From assembly GCF_030813715.1 (NCBI RefSeq), contig NZ_JAUSUZ010000001.1, positions 8,786,501-8,850,500 of the forward strand: a stretch of DNA of 64,000 nucleotides. Reading direction: 5' to 3'. Shown piece by piece: positions 14,871 to 20,179 of this stretch; position 1 is the stretch's first letter, and each line of letters begins with the position of its first letter. Both the position numbers and the translations under genes were made by a program. The stretch is from Catenuloplanes indicus (GTDB lineage: Bacteria; Actinomycetota; Actinomycetes; Mycobacteriales; Micromonosporaceae). The notes beneath the pieces are model-generated. The model had not been told where the DNA came from. It did no database searches and saw only the letters and a list, made by a program, of their open reading frames with translations.

Positions 14871-15053
14871 CCGCGCACGATAGCCGCGGTCGGTGCCCGG
14901 CGGAAACGGTTTTGCCAGCACCGGCCGTCCCCGCCGTCGGCCCGTCGCCCGTCCCGCCGGAGATCATCGGGGGCGCACGGGCGGATCACAGCTGGCGCAA
15001 AGGGTCCGGGCGCTGAATGAACGGGTCATGAATCCGAACTTAAGGATCGACCC

Positions 15054-15656
15054 GTGCAGCAGCTGCTCGTCATCGCGGTGGACCTGGTCGCCATCGGTGT
15101 CCTGGTCTTCGCCGTCTACTTCCCCCGCCACCACCGCCGGGACCTGGTCGCCGCGTTCCTCGGCGTCAACATCGGCGTGCTGGCCGTCTCGCTCGTGCTC
15201 GCCTCGTCCACGGTCGGTGTCGGGCTCGGCCTCGGGCTGTTCGGCGTACTGTCGATCATCCGGCTGCGGTCGGACGAGATCGCCCAGCACGAGGTCGCGT
15301 ACTACTTCGCGGCGCTCGCGCTGGGCCTGCTCGCGGGGTTGAGCGGCACGGTCACGCCGCTGACCGCCGGGCTGATGGCGCTGGTCGTGGCCGCGCTGGT
15401 GGCCGGTGACCACCCGGCGCTGTTCCGCCGGCACCGCGCCCAGACGCTGCGGCTGGACAGCGCGCACACCGACGAGGCCGCGCTCACCGCGCACCTGGAG
15501 ATCCTGCTCGGCGCGCGGGTGCTGAACGTGTCGATCAAGAACGTCGACCTGGTCAACGACACCACGCTCGCGGAGGTCCGCTACCTGGTGTCGCCGCGCC
15601 GCGCCCGGGTCGCCGACCGCGGACCGGCCCTGGAACGGATCGAGGCCGGGCGGTGA
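15054..15656 (+). CDS. DUF4956 membrane protein
   Basis: 200 residues. Four hydrophobic segments fill residues 3-125 (LLVIAVDLVAIGVLVF, LVAAFLGVNIGVLAVSLVLA, and two more), with the family hallmark FGVLSIIRLRSDEIAQHEVAYYFAALALGL between them. A cytosolic C-terminal domain of about 70 residues follows. DUF4956 proteins have no proven function but are regularly found next to VTC-type polyphosphate polymerases. GTG start with AAGGA upstream. First gene of a five-gene operon, overlapping the next by GTGA. Confidence 0.88.
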   Translation: MQQLLVIAVDLVAIGVLVFAVYFPRHHRRDLVAAFLGVNIGVLAVSLVLASSTVGVGLGLGLFGVLSIIRLRSDEIAQHEVAYYFAALALGLLAGLSGTVTPLTAGLMALVVAALVAGDHPALFRRHRAQTLRLDSAHTDEAALTAHLEILLGARVLNVSIKNVDLVNDTTLAEVRYLVSPRRARVADRGPALERIEAGR

Positions 15657-16426
15657 GGCCGATCACGCTGGACGAGCTGGTCGCGCGCGCCGCGCTGCTG
15701 CACCGGGTCGACCGCAAGTACGTGCTCGCCGGCGCGGACCTGAGCGCGTTCCTCGACCGGCTCGGCGACGACACCCGGGTGCTGGAGATCGACGGCCGCC
15801 GCACGTTCCGCTACCGCTCCGACTACCTGGACACGCCCGCGCTGACCGCCTATCTCGGTGCGGCACACCGCCGGCGCCGCAGATTCAAGATCAGATTCCG
15901 CCGGTACGAGGAGAGCGGCGCCCGGTTCATCGAGGTGAAGACGCGCGGGCGCCGGGGCGGCACGGTCAAGGAACGCATGCCGCACGACGACGCCGCGCTC
16001 ACCCCGGACGGCCTCGCCTACGTCGTCCGGACGCTCGGCGCGGCCGGTATCGCCGCCGCCGGACTGTCCCTGACACCGGCACTGACCAGCCGGTACCGCC
16101 GCACCACGCTCTTCCTGCCGGGCTGCGGCGCACGGGTGACCGTCGACGAGGACCTGTGCTGGGAGCTGCCGGACGGCACCGCACGCCGGGTCCCGGACCG
16201 GTTCGTGGTCGAGACCAAGTCCACCGGTGGTGCCTCCGAGGCCGACCGGGTGCTCTGGTCGCTCGGCCGCCGGCCGTGCCCGATCTCCAAGTACGCCACC
16301 GGCCTGGCCGCGCTCCGGCCCGGCCTGCCCGCCAACCGCTGGCGGCCGGTCCTGCGCCGGCTCGCCCCCGTACCCACCGCAGACCACCACCACCTGACCG
16401 TCCCGCTGAAAGGCAGCCGAGCATGA
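15653..16426 (+). CDS. VTC-domain polyphosphate polymerase-like protein
   Basis: 257 residues, a CYTH-fold tunnel enzyme of the VTC family. Basic and acidic tunnel residues are in the expected order: RVDRKYVL, FRYRSDYLDT, RRFKIRFRRYEES, IEVKTRGRRGGTVKERM, SRYRRTTLF, VTVDEDL, VVETKST and PISKYATG. Yeast Vtc4 makes polyphosphate from ATP at a membrane; bacterial relatives are presumed to polymerise a phosphate-containing product on the inner face. No membrane segment of its own, so the upstream DUF4956 protein may supply the channel. Overlaps both neighbours by 4 bases. Confidence 0.88.
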   Translation: MRPITLDELVARAALLHRVDRKYVLAGADLSAFLDRLGDDTRVLEIDGRRTFRYRSDYLDTPALTAYLGAAHRRRRRFKIRFRRYEESGARFIEVKTRGRRGGTVKERMPHDDAALTPDGLAYVVRTLGAAGIAAAGLSLTPALTSRYRRTTLFLPGCGARVTVDEDLCWELPDGTARRVPDRFVVETKSTGGASEADRVLWSLGRRPCPISKYATGLAALRPGLPANRWRPVLRRLAPVPTADHHHLTVPLKGSRA

Positions 16427-18198
16427 AGCCCATCCGTAAGAAGATCGTCGCCGCCGTGACGTCGCTGGTCCTGGCCGGCGCGATGCTGACCGGCTGCTCG
16501 GCCACCACCGCCTCGCCGGCCGCGTCCGAGGAGACGGCCGTGGCCGCCGCGTACGTCGACGGCGCGCAGACCGCCGAGGCCGTGCTCGCGGCGAACACCG
16601 CGGTGCACACCGCGGACGCCGGGTACGACGCGTCCACCGCGGCCGGGATCACGCTCACCGGCTCGTCCGCGACCGTGGACGGCGACGGCGTCACCGTCGA
16701 CGGCGGCACGGTCACGATCACGGCGTCCGGGACGTACCGGATCAGCGGCACGCTCACCGACGGCCAGATCGTGGTGGCCGCGGACGGCGCCACGGTCACG
16801 CTCGTGCTGGACGGCGCCACGATCTCCAGCAGCAGCACGGCCGCGATCGCGGTCACCGCCGCCGAGCGCGTCGTGGTGGTCCTGGCCGACGGCACCACCA
16901 GCACGCTCTCCGACACCTCGGCGTACGCCGCCGACGCCGACGTCAACGCCGCCCTGTTCAGCGCCGCGGACCTGACCATCGCCGGTGCCGGTGCACTGGT
17001 CGTGCACGGCAACGGCAACGACGGCATCGCCGGCAAGGACGGCCTGCTGATCACCGCCGGCACGATCACGGTCGAGGCGGCGGACGACGGCATCCGCGGC
17101 AAGGACTACCTGGCGGTGACCGGCGGCGCGATCACGGTCACCGCCGGCGGCGACGGGCTCAAAGCGGACAACGACACCGCCGCCGACGCCGGCTACGTCC
17201 TGGTCAGCGGCGGCACGGTCACGGCCACCGCGGGCGGCGACGGCGTCGACGCGGTCACCGACGTGGTGCTCACCGGCGGCACGGTCACGGTCACGGCCGG
17301 CGGCGGGCACGGCGCCCAGGCGAGCGAGGACACCTCGACGAAGGGCGTCAAGTCCGGCGTGGTCACGGTCCTGGAGGGCGGCACGGTCGCGGCCGACGCC
17401 GCCGACGACGCGGTGCACAGCGACGGCTCCGTGCACCTGTCCGGCGCCACGGTGACGCTCGCGGCCGGCGACGACGCCGTACACGCGGAGAACGCCCTGG
17501 TCGTGGACGGCGGCGCGGTCGAGGTCAGCACGTCCGGCGAGGGCCTGGAGGCCGCGGACATCACGGTCGCGGCCGGCAGCGTGCACGTGGTCGCCGACGA
17601 CGACGGCCTGAACGCGTCCGGCGGCACGTCCACCGGCGGCGGCCGCGGCGGCGAGATGGCCGCGGGCGACTTCTCGGTCACGGTCACCGGCGGCACGCTG
17701 GTCATCGACGCGAACGGCGACGGCCTCGACTCCAACGGCACGGCCACGATCAGCGGCGGGACCGTCGTGGTCAACGGCCCGGCCGGCCAGGGCAACGGCG
17801 CGCTGGACGTCAACGGCACGCTCACCGTCACCGGCGGCGTGCTGGTCGCGGCCGGCAGCTCCGGCACGGCGGTGGCGCCGTCCGCCGACTCCGCGCAGGG
17901 CTGGGTCTCGGTCACGTTCGACTCCACGGTCGCGGCCGGGACGACGCTGCAGCTGACCGACGCGGACGGCACCGTGGTCGCCACCTTCACCACCTCGAAG
18001 GACCTGCAGAACCTGGTCTTCTCCTCCGAGCGGATCACCAGCGGCGAGGAGTACACGGTCTACCGCGGCGGGTCCGCCTCCGGTGGCAGCACCGGCGGCC
18101 TGGCCGGGGCCGGTGAGCTCGGCTCCGCGACCCAGGTCGCCACGGCCACCGCGGGCGAGGCGCCGGCCGGTGGCCACGGCCCGGGGCCGCGCGGATGA
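16423..18198 (+). CDS. Carbohydrate-binding beta-helix lipoprotein (Cthe_2159/DUF4353-like)
   Basis: 591 residues. A lipoprotein signal ends in the lipobox MLTGC (Cys25). From about residue 75 to 500 the chain is a low-complexity parallel beta-helix, with turns such as GGTVTVTAGGDGVDAVTDV and ADDAVHSDGSVHLSGATVTL repeated about every 20-25 residues and acidic D-G loops that could bind calcium. Clostridial Cthe_2159, the type member, binds cellulose and acidic sugars. Overlaps neighbours by ATGA at both ends. Likely anchored outside the cell, holding or shaping the operon's polymer. Confidence 0.85.
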   Translation: MKPIRKKIVAAVTSLVLAGAMLTGCSATTASPAASEETAVAAAYVDGAQTAEAVLAANTAVHTADAGYDASTAAGITLTGSSATVDGDGVTVDGGTVTITASGTYRISGTLTDGQIVVAADGATVTLVLDGATISSSSTAAIAVTAAERVVVVLADGTTSTLSDTSAYAADADVNAALFSAADLTIAGAGALVVHGNGNDGIAGKDGLLITAGTITVEAADDGIRGKDYLAVTGGAITVTAGGDGLKADNDTAADAGYVLVSGGTVTATAGGDGVDAVTDVVLTGGTVTVTAGGGHGAQASEDTSTKGVKSGVVTVLEGGTVAADAADDAVHSDGSVHLSGATVTLAAGDDAVHAENALVVDGGAVEVSTSGEGLEAADITVAAGSVHVVADDDGLNASGGTSTGGGRGGEMAAGDFSVTVTGGTLVIDANGDGLDSNGTATISGGTVVVNGPAGQGNGALDVNGTLTVTGGVLVAAGSSGTAVAPSADSAQGWVSVTFDSTVAAGTTLQLTDADGTVVATFTTSKDLQNLVFSSERITSGEEYTVYRGGSASGGSTGGLAGAGELGSATQVATATAGEAPAGGHGPGPRG

Positions 18199-19100
18199 GC
18201 CGGCGACTCTCCCGCCGTGCGGTGCTGGCCGGCGGCCTCGGCGCGTTCGTCGCGGCCGCCGGTGGCACCAGCGCCTGGGCGCTCGACCGCTACGTCTTCG
18301 ACCACGTGCAGGTGGCGAACGCCTCCGCGCTGACCGACCTGGCCGACGTCGCCGGAACCGGCACCGCGACCGCGAGCGGCTACACCAGCGACACCGCGAC
18401 GGTCACGATCGAATCGGTGGACACCGGCACGGTGCGGTACTTCGTCGCGGACGTCACGGTCAGCGACGCCACCATCGTCCGGGCCGCGTTCGCGAACGAC
18501 CAGTTCGGCGAGAACATCATCGCGAACCCGTCCGAGATCGCCGCCGGCGCCGGCGCGGTGCTGGCGATCAACGGTGACTACTACGGGTTCCGGGACACCG
18601 GGATCGTGATCCGCAACGGCGTCGCGTTCCGGGACCGGGGCGCCCGGCAGGGACTCGCGATCCACACCGACGGCAGCGCCCGGCTGTACGACGAGACCGC
18701 CACGAACGCGGACGCGCTGCTGGCCGACGGGGTCTGGCACACGCTGTCGTTCGGGCCCGGCCTGGTGGAGAACGGCGCGGTGCTGGACGGCATCGACGCC
18801 GTGGAGATCGACACCAACGTCGGCAACCACTCCGTGCAGGGCAACCAGCCGCGCACCGGCATCGGGCTGGTCGACGCGAACCACTGGCTGTTCGTGGTCG
18901 TCGACGGCCGCAGCGACTCCAGCGCCGGGCTCACCATGAGCGGCTTCGCCCAGGTCTTCGCGGACCGGGGCGCGACCGTGGCGTACAACCTGGACGGCGG
19001 TGGCTCCTCCACGATGATCTTCAACGGTGACCTGGTCAACGACCCGCTCGGCCGTGGCCAGGAACGCGGCACCAGCGACATCCTCTACGTGGCCGGCTGA
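18195..19100 (+). CDS. Phosphodiester glycosidase family protein (NAGPA/DUF2233), exported
   Basis: 301 residues. The N-terminus has a twin-arginine-like signal (MSRRLSRRAVLAGGLGAFVAAAGG). The NAGPA domain follows with hallmark motifs AINGDYYGF, the QPRTGIGL segment and NLDGGGSSTM near the C-terminus. The human relative removes GlcNAc from GlcNAc-1-phospho-6-mannose; bacterial members cleave sugar phosphodiesters. In this operon it could trim or release a phosphodiester-linked glycan. Translation is coupled to the lipoprotein gene. Confidence 0.88.
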   Translation: MSRRLSRRAVLAGGLGAFVAAAGGTSAWALDRYVFDHVQVANASALTDLADVAGTGTATASGYTSDTATVTIESVDTGTVRYFVADVTVSDATIVRAAFANDQFGENIIANPSEIAAGAGAVLAINGDYYGFRDTGIVIRNGVAFRDRGARQGLAIHTDGSARLYDETATNADALLADGVWHTLSFGPGLVENGAVLDGIDAVEIDTNVGNHSVQGNQPRTGIGLVDANHWLFVVVDGRSDSSAGLTMSGFAQVFADRGATVAYNLDGGGSSTMIFNGDLVNDPLGRGQERGTSDILYVAG

Positions 19101-20179
19101 TGGACGCGGTCATCCTGATCCCGGCGTACCAGCCGGACGGGCGGCTCACCGACCTCCTCGTCCGGCTGGCCGGCCACGACGTCGTGGTGGTCGACGACGG
19201 CAGTGGCCCCCGGTACGCCGACGTCTTCGCCCGGGCCCGCGCGCTCGGCGCCGAGGTGGTCACGCACGACCGCAACCGTGGCAAGGGCGCGGCGCTCAAG
19301 ACCGGGTTCGCGCACGTGCGGGCGTACCGTGCGGGTCGTGACGTGGTCTGCGCGGACAGCGACGGCCAGCACCGCCCCGGCGACATCGAGGCCGTCGCCG
19401 CCCGGCTGGCGGCCGGCGATGCCGATCTGGTGCTCGGCGCCCGCCGGTTCACCGGCCCGGTCCCGGCCCGCAGCCGGTTCGGCAACGGATGCACCCGTAC
19501 GGTGTTCCGGCTCGCCACCGGCCGCGACCTCGCGGACACCCAGACCGGCCTGCGCGGCTACCCGGCCCGGCACCTGCCGCGGCTGGGCACGGTCCCGGGC
19601 GCGCGATTCGAGTACGAGCAGCGCCTGCTGCTGCGCGCGGTCCGCGACCGGTGGACGATCGCGGAGGTCCCGATCGCCACCGTCTACCTGGCCGGCAACG
19701 CGTCCTCGCACTTCCGGCCGCTGCGCGACTCCGCCCGGGTGTACGGGCCGCTGCTCGCCTACGGCACGTCGTCGCTGCTGGCGTTCGCGGTCGACACCGC
19801 GCTGTTCCTGGCCCTGGCCGCGGTCACCGGCGGGGTCGCCGGACCGGCCGTGCTCGCCCGCCTGGTCAGCGCCACGCTCAACTTCACGGTCAACCGGCGG
19901 TACGTCTTCGGCCGCGCCGCGCCACTGACCCGGGCCGCCCGGGACTACGCGCTGCTCGCCGCCGTGATCCTGGCCGCGAACGTGGTGCTGCTGACCGTGT
20001 TCACCGCGGCGACCGGATCCGCGCCGGCCGCCAAGCTCCTCGCCGAGGGCGTGCTGCTGGCCGCGAGCTTCCTGGTGCAGCGGCACGTGGTCTTCGCCGA
20101 TCGCCGCCCGCCGGCCCCGGTCCCGGCGCCCGGCGTCACACCAGCCCGCCCGATGGCCGGAGCGGGCCAACCGCACTGA
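19100..20179 (+). CDS. Fused family-2 glycosyltransferase and GtrA-like membrane protein
   Basis: 359 residues. Residues 1-210 are a GT-A glycosyltransferase of the dolichol-phosphate-mannose synthase type (VVVVDDGSG, CADSDGQHRPGDIE with the metal-binding D-x-D, TGLRGYPARHLPRL). Residues 215-335 are a GtrA domain with four membrane helices (LLAYGTSSLLAFAVDTALFLAL, then LNFTVNRRYVFGR). Such fusions put a sugar on undecaprenyl phosphate and help move it across the membrane. It starts on the last base of the preceding stop codon and closes the operon. Confidence 0.92.
   Translation: MDAVILIPAYQPDGRLTDLLVRLAGHDVVVVDDGSGPRYADVFARARALGAEVVTHDRNRGKGAALKTGFAHVRAYRAGRDVVCADSDGQHRPGDIEAVAARLAAGDADLVLGARRFTGPVPARSRFGNGCTRTVFRLATGRDLADTQTGLRGYPARHLPRLGTVPGARFEYEQRLLLRAVRDRWTIAEVPIATVYLAGNASSHFRPLRDSARVYGPLLAYGTSSLLAFAVDTALFLALAAVTGGVAGPAVLARLVSATLNFTVNRRYVFGRAAPLTRAARDYALLAAVILAANVVLLTVFTAATGSAPAAKLLAEGVLLAASFLVQRHVVFADRRPPAPVPAPGVTPARPMAGAGQPH

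Follow-up and report, generated by a model that had tools for sequence, protein, structure and literature searches.

The 64,000-nucleotide stretch of the Catenuloplanes indicus genome analysed here (the window) carries a five-gene operon that is a variant of a recurrent, uncharacterised system, the D-V-CotH core of which is already in print. The genes encode a DUF4956 membrane protein (D), a VTC-type tunnel protein (V), a Cthe_2159-family lipoprotein (C), a NAGPA-family phosphodiester glycosidase (N) and a GT2-GtrA fusion (G), and the operon is organized in three layers, namely the D-V pair, a surface protein and an optional N-G pair, rather than as one complete pathway. The five forward-strand open reading frames (ORFs), read from the DNA, follow each other in this order, with successive junction overlaps of four bases (GTGA, ATGA and ATGA) and, last, one base (TGATG):

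15054..15656, + strand: D, DUF4956 membrane protein, 200 residues (PF16316, 203 bits)
15653..16426, + strand: V, VTC-type triphosphate-tunnel protein, predicted polyphosphate polymerase, 257 residues (PF09359, 71.4 bits versus a cut-off of 23)
16423..18198, + strand: C, Cthe_2159-family lipoprotein, 591 residues (PF14262, 283.3 bits versus 25.8)
18195..19100, + strand: N, NAGPA-family phosphodiester glycosidase, 301 residues (PF09992, 113.9 bits versus 25)
19100..20179, + strand: G, GT2 fused to a GtrA domain, 359 residues (PF00535, 56.3 bits; PF04138, 43.7 bits versus a GtrA cut-off of 26.1)

Families were called with Pfam profiles at curated cut-offs, which all six domains of the five proteins exceed; NCBIfam was also scanned and gave a curated name for none of the five. 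The gene families and the overlapping five-gene layout described in an earlier, sequence-only reading of this DNA are thereby confirmed. Catenuloplanes japonicus (L032) has the identical five-gene order without inserts, with BLASTP identities to the window of 82% (D), 78% (V), 76% (C), 84% (N) and 72% (G). The order is not due to chance, because it is kept in C. japonicus while the genes flanking the operon there belong to other clusters than those flanking it in the window.

D and V form a constant core with apparently alternative surface partners

Presence and absence of D, V, C, N, G and the CotH kinase were scored in an order sample of 121 genomes, with the window's own genome as G000. A control set of 14 genomes served for D and V co-occurrence, and V, C and G were also scored in a phylum sample of 296 genomes. 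Gene order was read in 81 loci with their flanks, comprising the window and, out of 347 loci, the 80 with the highest D similarity; neighbouring genes were predicted with a codon-usage caller, which missed V in one locus and D in L112.

D and V are present in the identical 24 of 121 genomes of the order and in the same 3 of 14 control genomes, which bears out the recurrence of the DUF4956-VTC pairing stated in the sequence-only reading and makes D the constant membrane partner of V. C was found in 11 of 121 genomes, every one among the 24 with D-V, and CotH in 14, of which 11 fall within those 24. The phylum sample contained V in 29 genomes, C in 16 and both in 12. Of the 81 loci, 58 have C (43 D-V-C, 14 with N-G and the one where the gene caller missed V), 18 have CotH, 5 have neither and none has both. 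The CotH counts come from a widened local profile, with Pfam confirmation in only two of the 18 loci (L072 and L084, the latter added by the widened profile). L088 was considered as a double locus and rejected, its candidate CotH being a PETase with a CBM_2 domain. The two surface proteins can co-occur within a genome (G015, G032 and G042); the window's own genome has no CotH match (PF08757). By these distributions across genomes and loci D-V is the core, to which C and CotH appear to be alternative partners on the outside.

A second D-V-C locus lies in the window's own genome (G000:C1 at about 6715000-6718600; L111:7113-10539, minus strand), at 61% (D), 55% (V) and 48% (C) identity to the window; N and G were not found in the 19 kb read around it.

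N and G form an optional pair that goes with C

N occurs in 17 of 111 sequences, G in the same 17 and C in all of them. Co-conservation of the five genes, the lack of which the sequence-only reading had named as refuting its model, holds in part: D-V is strict in the order sample and D-V-C is common, and all five genes occur together in only 14 of the 81 loci (13 and the window), always with C, in Catenuloplanes, Micromonospora, Actinoplanes, Clavibacter, Herbiconiux and one further genus. D-V-C-N-G forms an uninterrupted row in Catenuloplanes (L032), Micromonospora (L048), Actinoplanes (L081) and Clavibacter (L059, with V and C each read as two pieces). Elsewhere the arrangement varies. A regulator of the HTH_31/DUF5753 type (one scanned) separates C from N in six Actinoplanes loci (L044-L046, L050, L051 and L058), four reverse-strand genes do so in L097, and N-G is divergent from D-V-C in L052, L099 and L112-L114 (the D of L112 was seen in an earlier scan as L005). 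G032 has N-G-C as a cluster of its own on contig C4, and D-V on contig C2 beside CotH. The HTH_31/DUF5753 regulator lies at 11403-12296 in L044, and a gene 33-37% identical to it adjoins the N-G-C cluster of L131 (L131:11713-12600).

Full-length G (E < 1e-80) was detected in 6 of the 11 genomes with C and in none of the other 110. N adjoins five of these six G genes, and the sixth, in G042, is on split contigs. G was also searched for in 49 genomes without N-G at the D locus (44 with C, 4 with CotH and 1 with neither; L072 was left out). Matches at E ≤ 1e-40 were found in 13, all of the C kind, so the remaining 31 of 44 D-V-C genomes have no such match and D-V-C mostly occurs without N-G. Twelve of the 13 G regions were read (all but G222), with N beside G in six (L171, L172, L173, L175, L177 and L178) and not in the other six (L174, L176 and L179-L182). 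At E ≤ 1e-55, the matches listed for the phylum sample, with six candidates scored per genome, include G only in G000 of 296 genomes; this sample is uninformative for G, and the N-G co-occurrence test therefore rests on the order sample. The NAGPA family as a whole is present in 52 of 121 genomes. N-G is thus an optional pair that goes with C, and a single five-gene pathway is too strong a description of the operon.

V is a Vtc4-type tunnel protein

V consists of a single Pfam domain, with no SPX and no membrane domain. Its structural model (predicted local distance difference test score, pLDDT, 93.4) retrieves VTC chains at Foldseek ranks 1-12, above other tunnel enzymes, with Vtc4 (3g3r, E 7.2e-13) as the best match, and its sequence profile matches Vtc4 (E 2.5e-10), Vtc2 and Vtc3. 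Vtc4 K200, R264, R266, E279 and K281 align with V K22, R81, R83, E94 and K96, and Vtc4 K294, R361, R373 and D377 align with V K106, R150, R161 and D165. The sequence-only reading had named absence of the tunnel residues on alignment as refuting its model; these nine mapped positions are invariant in 45 of 45 sequences, so it passes this test for them. The numbering assumes that the lysine of TTKY is K200 of Vtc4, which yields R264 and R266 as in the literature, and we take R264, R266 and E426 to be catalytic. V E187, within an invariant E-x-K, is probably the counterpart of Vtc4 E426, judged by the motif, as it lies outside the alignment. A solved complex contains a Vtc4 mutant altered at three residues, R264, R266 and E426 (PMC9911596). 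By sequence and modelled fold, V is a Vtc4-type tunnel protein, and it probably makes polyphosphate.

D combines a helical membrane region with conserved basic residues

D is predicted to contain five long transmembrane (TM) helices and a beta-alpha-beta-beta domain (AlphaFold2, mean pLDDT 88.2, predicted TM-score 0.74). H26, R70 and R72 are invariant, and R25 and R28 are conserved in at least 90% of 45 sequences; helix positions and the positive-inside rule would place these basic residues at cytosolic helix ends. Weak fold matches include several proteins with what we take to be ACT-type regulatory domains. A one-to-one profile comparison with MgtC, whose sequences came from a 60-genome phylum sample, aligned the region from TM3 to the C-terminus (hhalign probability 72.6, P 3.2e-5), compared with 1.2 for reversed MgtC, 0.6 for GtrA and at most 0.6 for 20 column shuffles. 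A search for MgtC in G000, G032 and G071 gave no match. DUF4956 may be a remote relative of MgtC/SapB, as a lead and not a family membership. D and V probably form one complex; that D also transports the polyphosphate chain is slightly less likely than not.

C, N and G have predicted extracytoplasmic and membrane functions

C is acidic (65 Asp and Glu versus 17 Lys and Arg), carries the lipobox LTGC (47 of 57 long members of its family have a lipobox pattern) and matches PDB 4peu at E 1e-37. These features mark C as a Cthe_2159-family lipoprotein that is acidic and exported; Cthe_2159 itself binds calcium and polyanions. N begins with a Tat-like SRRAVLAGG and has solved relatives that include 3ohg, 6pki and 6pky. 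Most positions of its NGDYYGFR, PRTG, DGRS and NLDGGGS motifs are invariant in 24 aligned N proteins. NAGPA enzymes cut sugar-1-phosphodiester bonds, and members act on various sugar-phosphodiesters. The best NCBIfam relative of G is PpgS (polyprenyl-phospho-GalNAc synthase) at 73.5 bits, far under the 370-bit cut-off, and the D86-x-D88 of G is invariant in 22 of 22 sequences; G is predicted to be a polyprenyl-phosphate sugar synthase and flippase.

No protein with at least eight predicted TM helices recurs near N-G beyond close relatives in 24 loci, with up to six genes read per side. The multi-TM groups scanned there were a GGDEF/diguanylate cyclase (L045) and an acetyltransferase of the HGSNAT_cat type (L112). 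Likewise, no GT-C candidate recurs at the 24 loci, a statement that covers these neighbourhoods and not the rest of the genome, and involved no GT-C family search. The neighbours that N-G loci of distant groups have in common comprise a ferric-reductase-like protein, the HTH regulator and some soluble families.

Proposed mechanism and alternatives

The best explanation of the operon, offered tentatively and at rather less than an even chance, is a phosphate-polymer system running from the cytoplasm to the surface, to which a glycan accessory may be added. At the inner face V would build polyphosphate from the gamma-phosphate of ATP, and D would receive V and pass or gate the chain by way of H26, R70 and R72, with R25 and R28. 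C, as a calcium and polyanion binder, would hold the polymer outside, in the place taken by the CotH kinase at other D-V loci. G would make and flip a polyprenyl-phosphate sugar, and N, outside, would act on the sugar-1-phosphodiester of G, freeing the lipid carrier or passing the sugar on. A regulator of the OmpR/PhoP type would bind 11-bp repeats upstream of D and control the operon.

The action of N on the product of G falls only a little short of even probability. It is suggested by the predicted product of G, itself a sugar-1-phosphodiester and hence of the NAGPA bond class, by N being the constant neighbour of G near D, and by the failure of any GT-C candidate to recur near the pair in 24 loci. 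A more specific version, which we regard as speculative and improbable, has N as an extracytoplasmic NAGPA-fold enzyme using the lipid sugar of G, either as a hydrolase that releases the carrier at the outer leaflet or as a GT-C-replacing transglycosidase that decorates C or a VTC-exported phosphate polymer, and has DUF4956 sharing ancestry with MgtC. If true, this would be surface glycosylation of a new type, coupled to polyphosphate at the cell surface.

Several points weigh against the phosphate-polymer scheme. No arginine of V aligns with Vtc4 R253, and Vtc4 has an SPX domain and TM helices of its own, neither of which is present in V; the membrane partner is instead DUF4956, and no separate SPX gene was searched for. 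At E ≤ 0.001 the D model matches no fold in the PDB, and its profile tie is to MgtC, which is not known to us as a polymer channel. The literature searched reports neither an activity nor a product or localisation for any of the members. The absence of a G match from 31 of 44 D-V-C genomes also counts here, as does the D-V-C contig of G209 (L085), which stops shortly past C, so that the N-G pair read elsewhere in that genome (L177) may belong to the same locus. The GT2 half of G alone (53-58% identity over residues 3-230) is encoded by six genomes of a single genus, all of which lack C. D-V is also missing from five of the six (G028, G047, G056, G084 and G091), and the remaining one (G098) has a divergent D-V; GT2 chemistry is thus not tied to C. 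Finally, the genome counts take no account of kinship between genomes, so that p-values derived from them come out too strong, and the 80 loci read besides the window were selected by D similarity.

The strongest rival, although unlikely, is that D-V serves a surface glycan, adding phosphate or short polyphosphate to an exopolysaccharide made elsewhere or assisting its modification, with C or CotH as the outside binding or kinase partner. CotH, polyphosphate polymerase and DUF4956 genes stand beside pelDEADAFG in streptococci, clostridia and bifidobacteria (PMC7112168), and the NELoc-2 locus of Clostridium perfringens has VTC genes and CotH together with a glycosyltransferase and a polysaccharide deacetylase (PMC2879425, PMC11677781). 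Sulfotransferase and GT2 genes precede D-V in L119 and L120, and a pectate lyase is encoded near Streptomyces D-V-C. Against this, V keeps the residues of a polyphosphate polymerase.

For N, an improbable alternative is the role of a conventional secreted phosphodiester glycosidase, one that obtains phosphate or sugar from polymers of the teichoic type and whose pairing with G reflects joint regulation only. The breadth of the NAGPA family (52 of 121 genomes) and the variety of sugar-phosphodiesters on which its members act would fit such a role, but N adjoins G at every one of the 17 loci near D and, elsewhere, in 6 of the 12 regions read, and it adjoins five of the six full-length G genes of the order sample, the sixth being the G042 gene on split contigs. 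The model of the sequence-only reading, in which V and D make and export polyphosphate, the sugar of G is built in, C anchors the hybrid and N trims it to give one product, is very improbable: all five genes overlap and N and G come with C in 17 of 17 loci, but a majority of the D-V-C genomes searched (31 of 44) show no G match, G032 keeps N-G-C on another contig than D-V, which there lies beside CotH, and no enzyme joining sugar to a phosphate chain was recognised among the recurrent neighbours. The 'complete path' that it saw in the five genes is not supported by these G counts, nor by the finding that no protein with at least eight TM helices recurs by N-G beyond close relatives.

An 11-bp repeat upstream of D

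The following feature precedes the operon in the window:

14963..15006, + strand: candidate operator array of four 11-bp units, separated from the D start by 47 bases

In the 160 bp before D, 50 of 81 loci contain 7-mers that repeat at a distance of 11 bp, where shuffles predict 15.9, and 37 of 81 contain 7-mers that repeat at 22 bp, where shuffles predict 14.1. Natural-sequence controls exceed shuffles for 11-bp periodicity; measured against them, 11-bp repeats occur in 62% of D upstreams, as against 31% among 548 other upstreams of the intergenic kind and 23% among 294 that lie inside operons. An exact CAYAG-N6-CAYAG pair on either strand was found in 33 of 81 D upstreams, 23 of 548 intergenic regions (13 of the 23 share the promoter region of D) and 0 of 294 intra-operon upstreams. 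Another two of the 23 (L053 and L056) lie upstream of the cluster's own response-regulator gene, a pattern that autoregulation would produce. Genes for OmpR-type regulators lie no further than 6 kb from D in 11 of 80 loci and in 8 further regions, and only two in the 80 loci lie beyond 4 kb. The CAYAG unit resembles the Mycobacterium tuberculosis PhoP direct repeat TCACAGC with its 4-bp spacer (PMC4832192). The conserved 11-bp direct repeat points to a candidate operator of an OmpR/PhoP-type regulator. GTTCACC/GGTGAAC words, open to a PHO-box reading, are also enriched before D, and the 11-bp CAYAG repeat is the stronger signal.

The array in the window is degenerate, with the units ATCATCG, CGCACGG, ATCACAG and CGCAAAG in register. 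The three best matrix scores within 14891-15040 are also in register, at 14985 (6.2), 14974 (3.5) and 14963 (1.7). There is no exact CAYAG pair in the window, so its own operator copy is weak, and no OmpR-type regulator gene within 6 kb of D.

Neighbouring genes

Five ORFs scanned beside the operon include three of acetyltransferase, BTAD regulator and epoxide hydrolase types and two without a family. The sulfotransferase and GT2 genes upstream of D-V span L119:10135-12049 and L120:7469-9407, in genomes without Cthe_2159. A secreted pectate lyase (PF00544) lies downstream of C in Streptomyces (L031:11343-12755), with relatives by similarity (cluster k17) in the Streptomyces loci L033, L035, L037 and L039-L041. 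Divergent from D in Actinoplanes are genes for a ferric-reductase-like protein (PF01794), an FMN_bind protein (PF04205) and a two-component system (one locus scanned); this set precedes D in L044-L046, L050, L051, L085 and L097, and a ferric-reductase relative is encoded downstream of G in Clavibacter (L059:13796-15115). The stand-alone GT2 genes lie in L134-L139, with a DUF218 gene adjoining in L137, the one scanned.

Comparison with known systems

The sequence-only reading called the system undescribed. For the core this does not hold, as DUF4956, polyphosphate polymerase and CotH, with DUF4832 in some cases, are published as accessory genes of Gram-positive pel clusters (PMC7112168). For the C-N-G form it stands so far, as no description was found in the literature searched, which covers subscription papers and preprints thinly. 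The window shares with the pel accessory genes the adjacent D-V pair and an exported third protein, but has C in the place of CotH and adds N-G; pel genes themselves were never searched for. The membrane genes labelled 'tubulin/FtsZ' in C. perfringens NELoc-2 are, from size and position, probably DUF4956. The gsf cluster of Actinoplanes missouriensis (PMC13390465), considered for its GtrA, is another system, because its main text mentions no DUF4956, VTC, polyphosphate or phosphodiester glycosidase. The Cthe_2159 family (PF14262) is represented in the PDB by 4peu and 4phb, both titled 'Uncharacterized protein'; unlike these structures, C of the window is longer, is a lipoprotein and lies beside D-V.

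N-G resembles three-component glycosylation, in which a GT2, a GtrA flippase and a GT-C act together, as in CsbB-GtcA-YfhO (PMC11898649, PMC7389260). The GT2 and GtrA functions are shared and are fused in G, whereas no GT-C candidate recurs by N-G and the constant neighbour is a NAGPA-type enzyme. UshA of Bacillus subtilis, an alpha/beta-hydrolase-like cytoplasmic undecaprenyl-phosphate-sugar hydrolase whose enzyme activity is not demonstrated (PMC11898649), would, like the proposed N, free the lipid carrier from a monophosphate-linked sugar. The UshA evidence suggests that cells use enzymes for this purpose; UshA works inside the cell, whereas N is an exported NAGPA-family protein. The N-G pairing proposes a substrate for one group of NAGPA enzymes.

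In bacteria, polyphosphate is for the most part ascribed to PPK enzymes (PMC10657179, PMC6537752). A polymerase of the VTC type that has a constant membrane partner would represent a second route, one that might place polyphosphate outside the cell, and the strict tie to V offers a direct test for DUF4956, which has no assigned function in Pfam. The closest known parallel to D-V is the yeast VTC complex (Vtc4/Vtc3/Vtc1; PMC9911596; PDB 3g3q, 8i6v), which V resembles in its tunnel fold and mapped tunnel residues. D-V further resembles this complex in having a constant membrane partner for the soluble domain and, if the residues are placed correctly, basic side chains near the membrane entrance. 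Unlike yeast VTC, D-V has no SPX domain and no fused TM helices, the partner of V is DUF4956, with five helices and a ferredoxin-like domain, rather than Vtc1, and the operon adds surface proteins.

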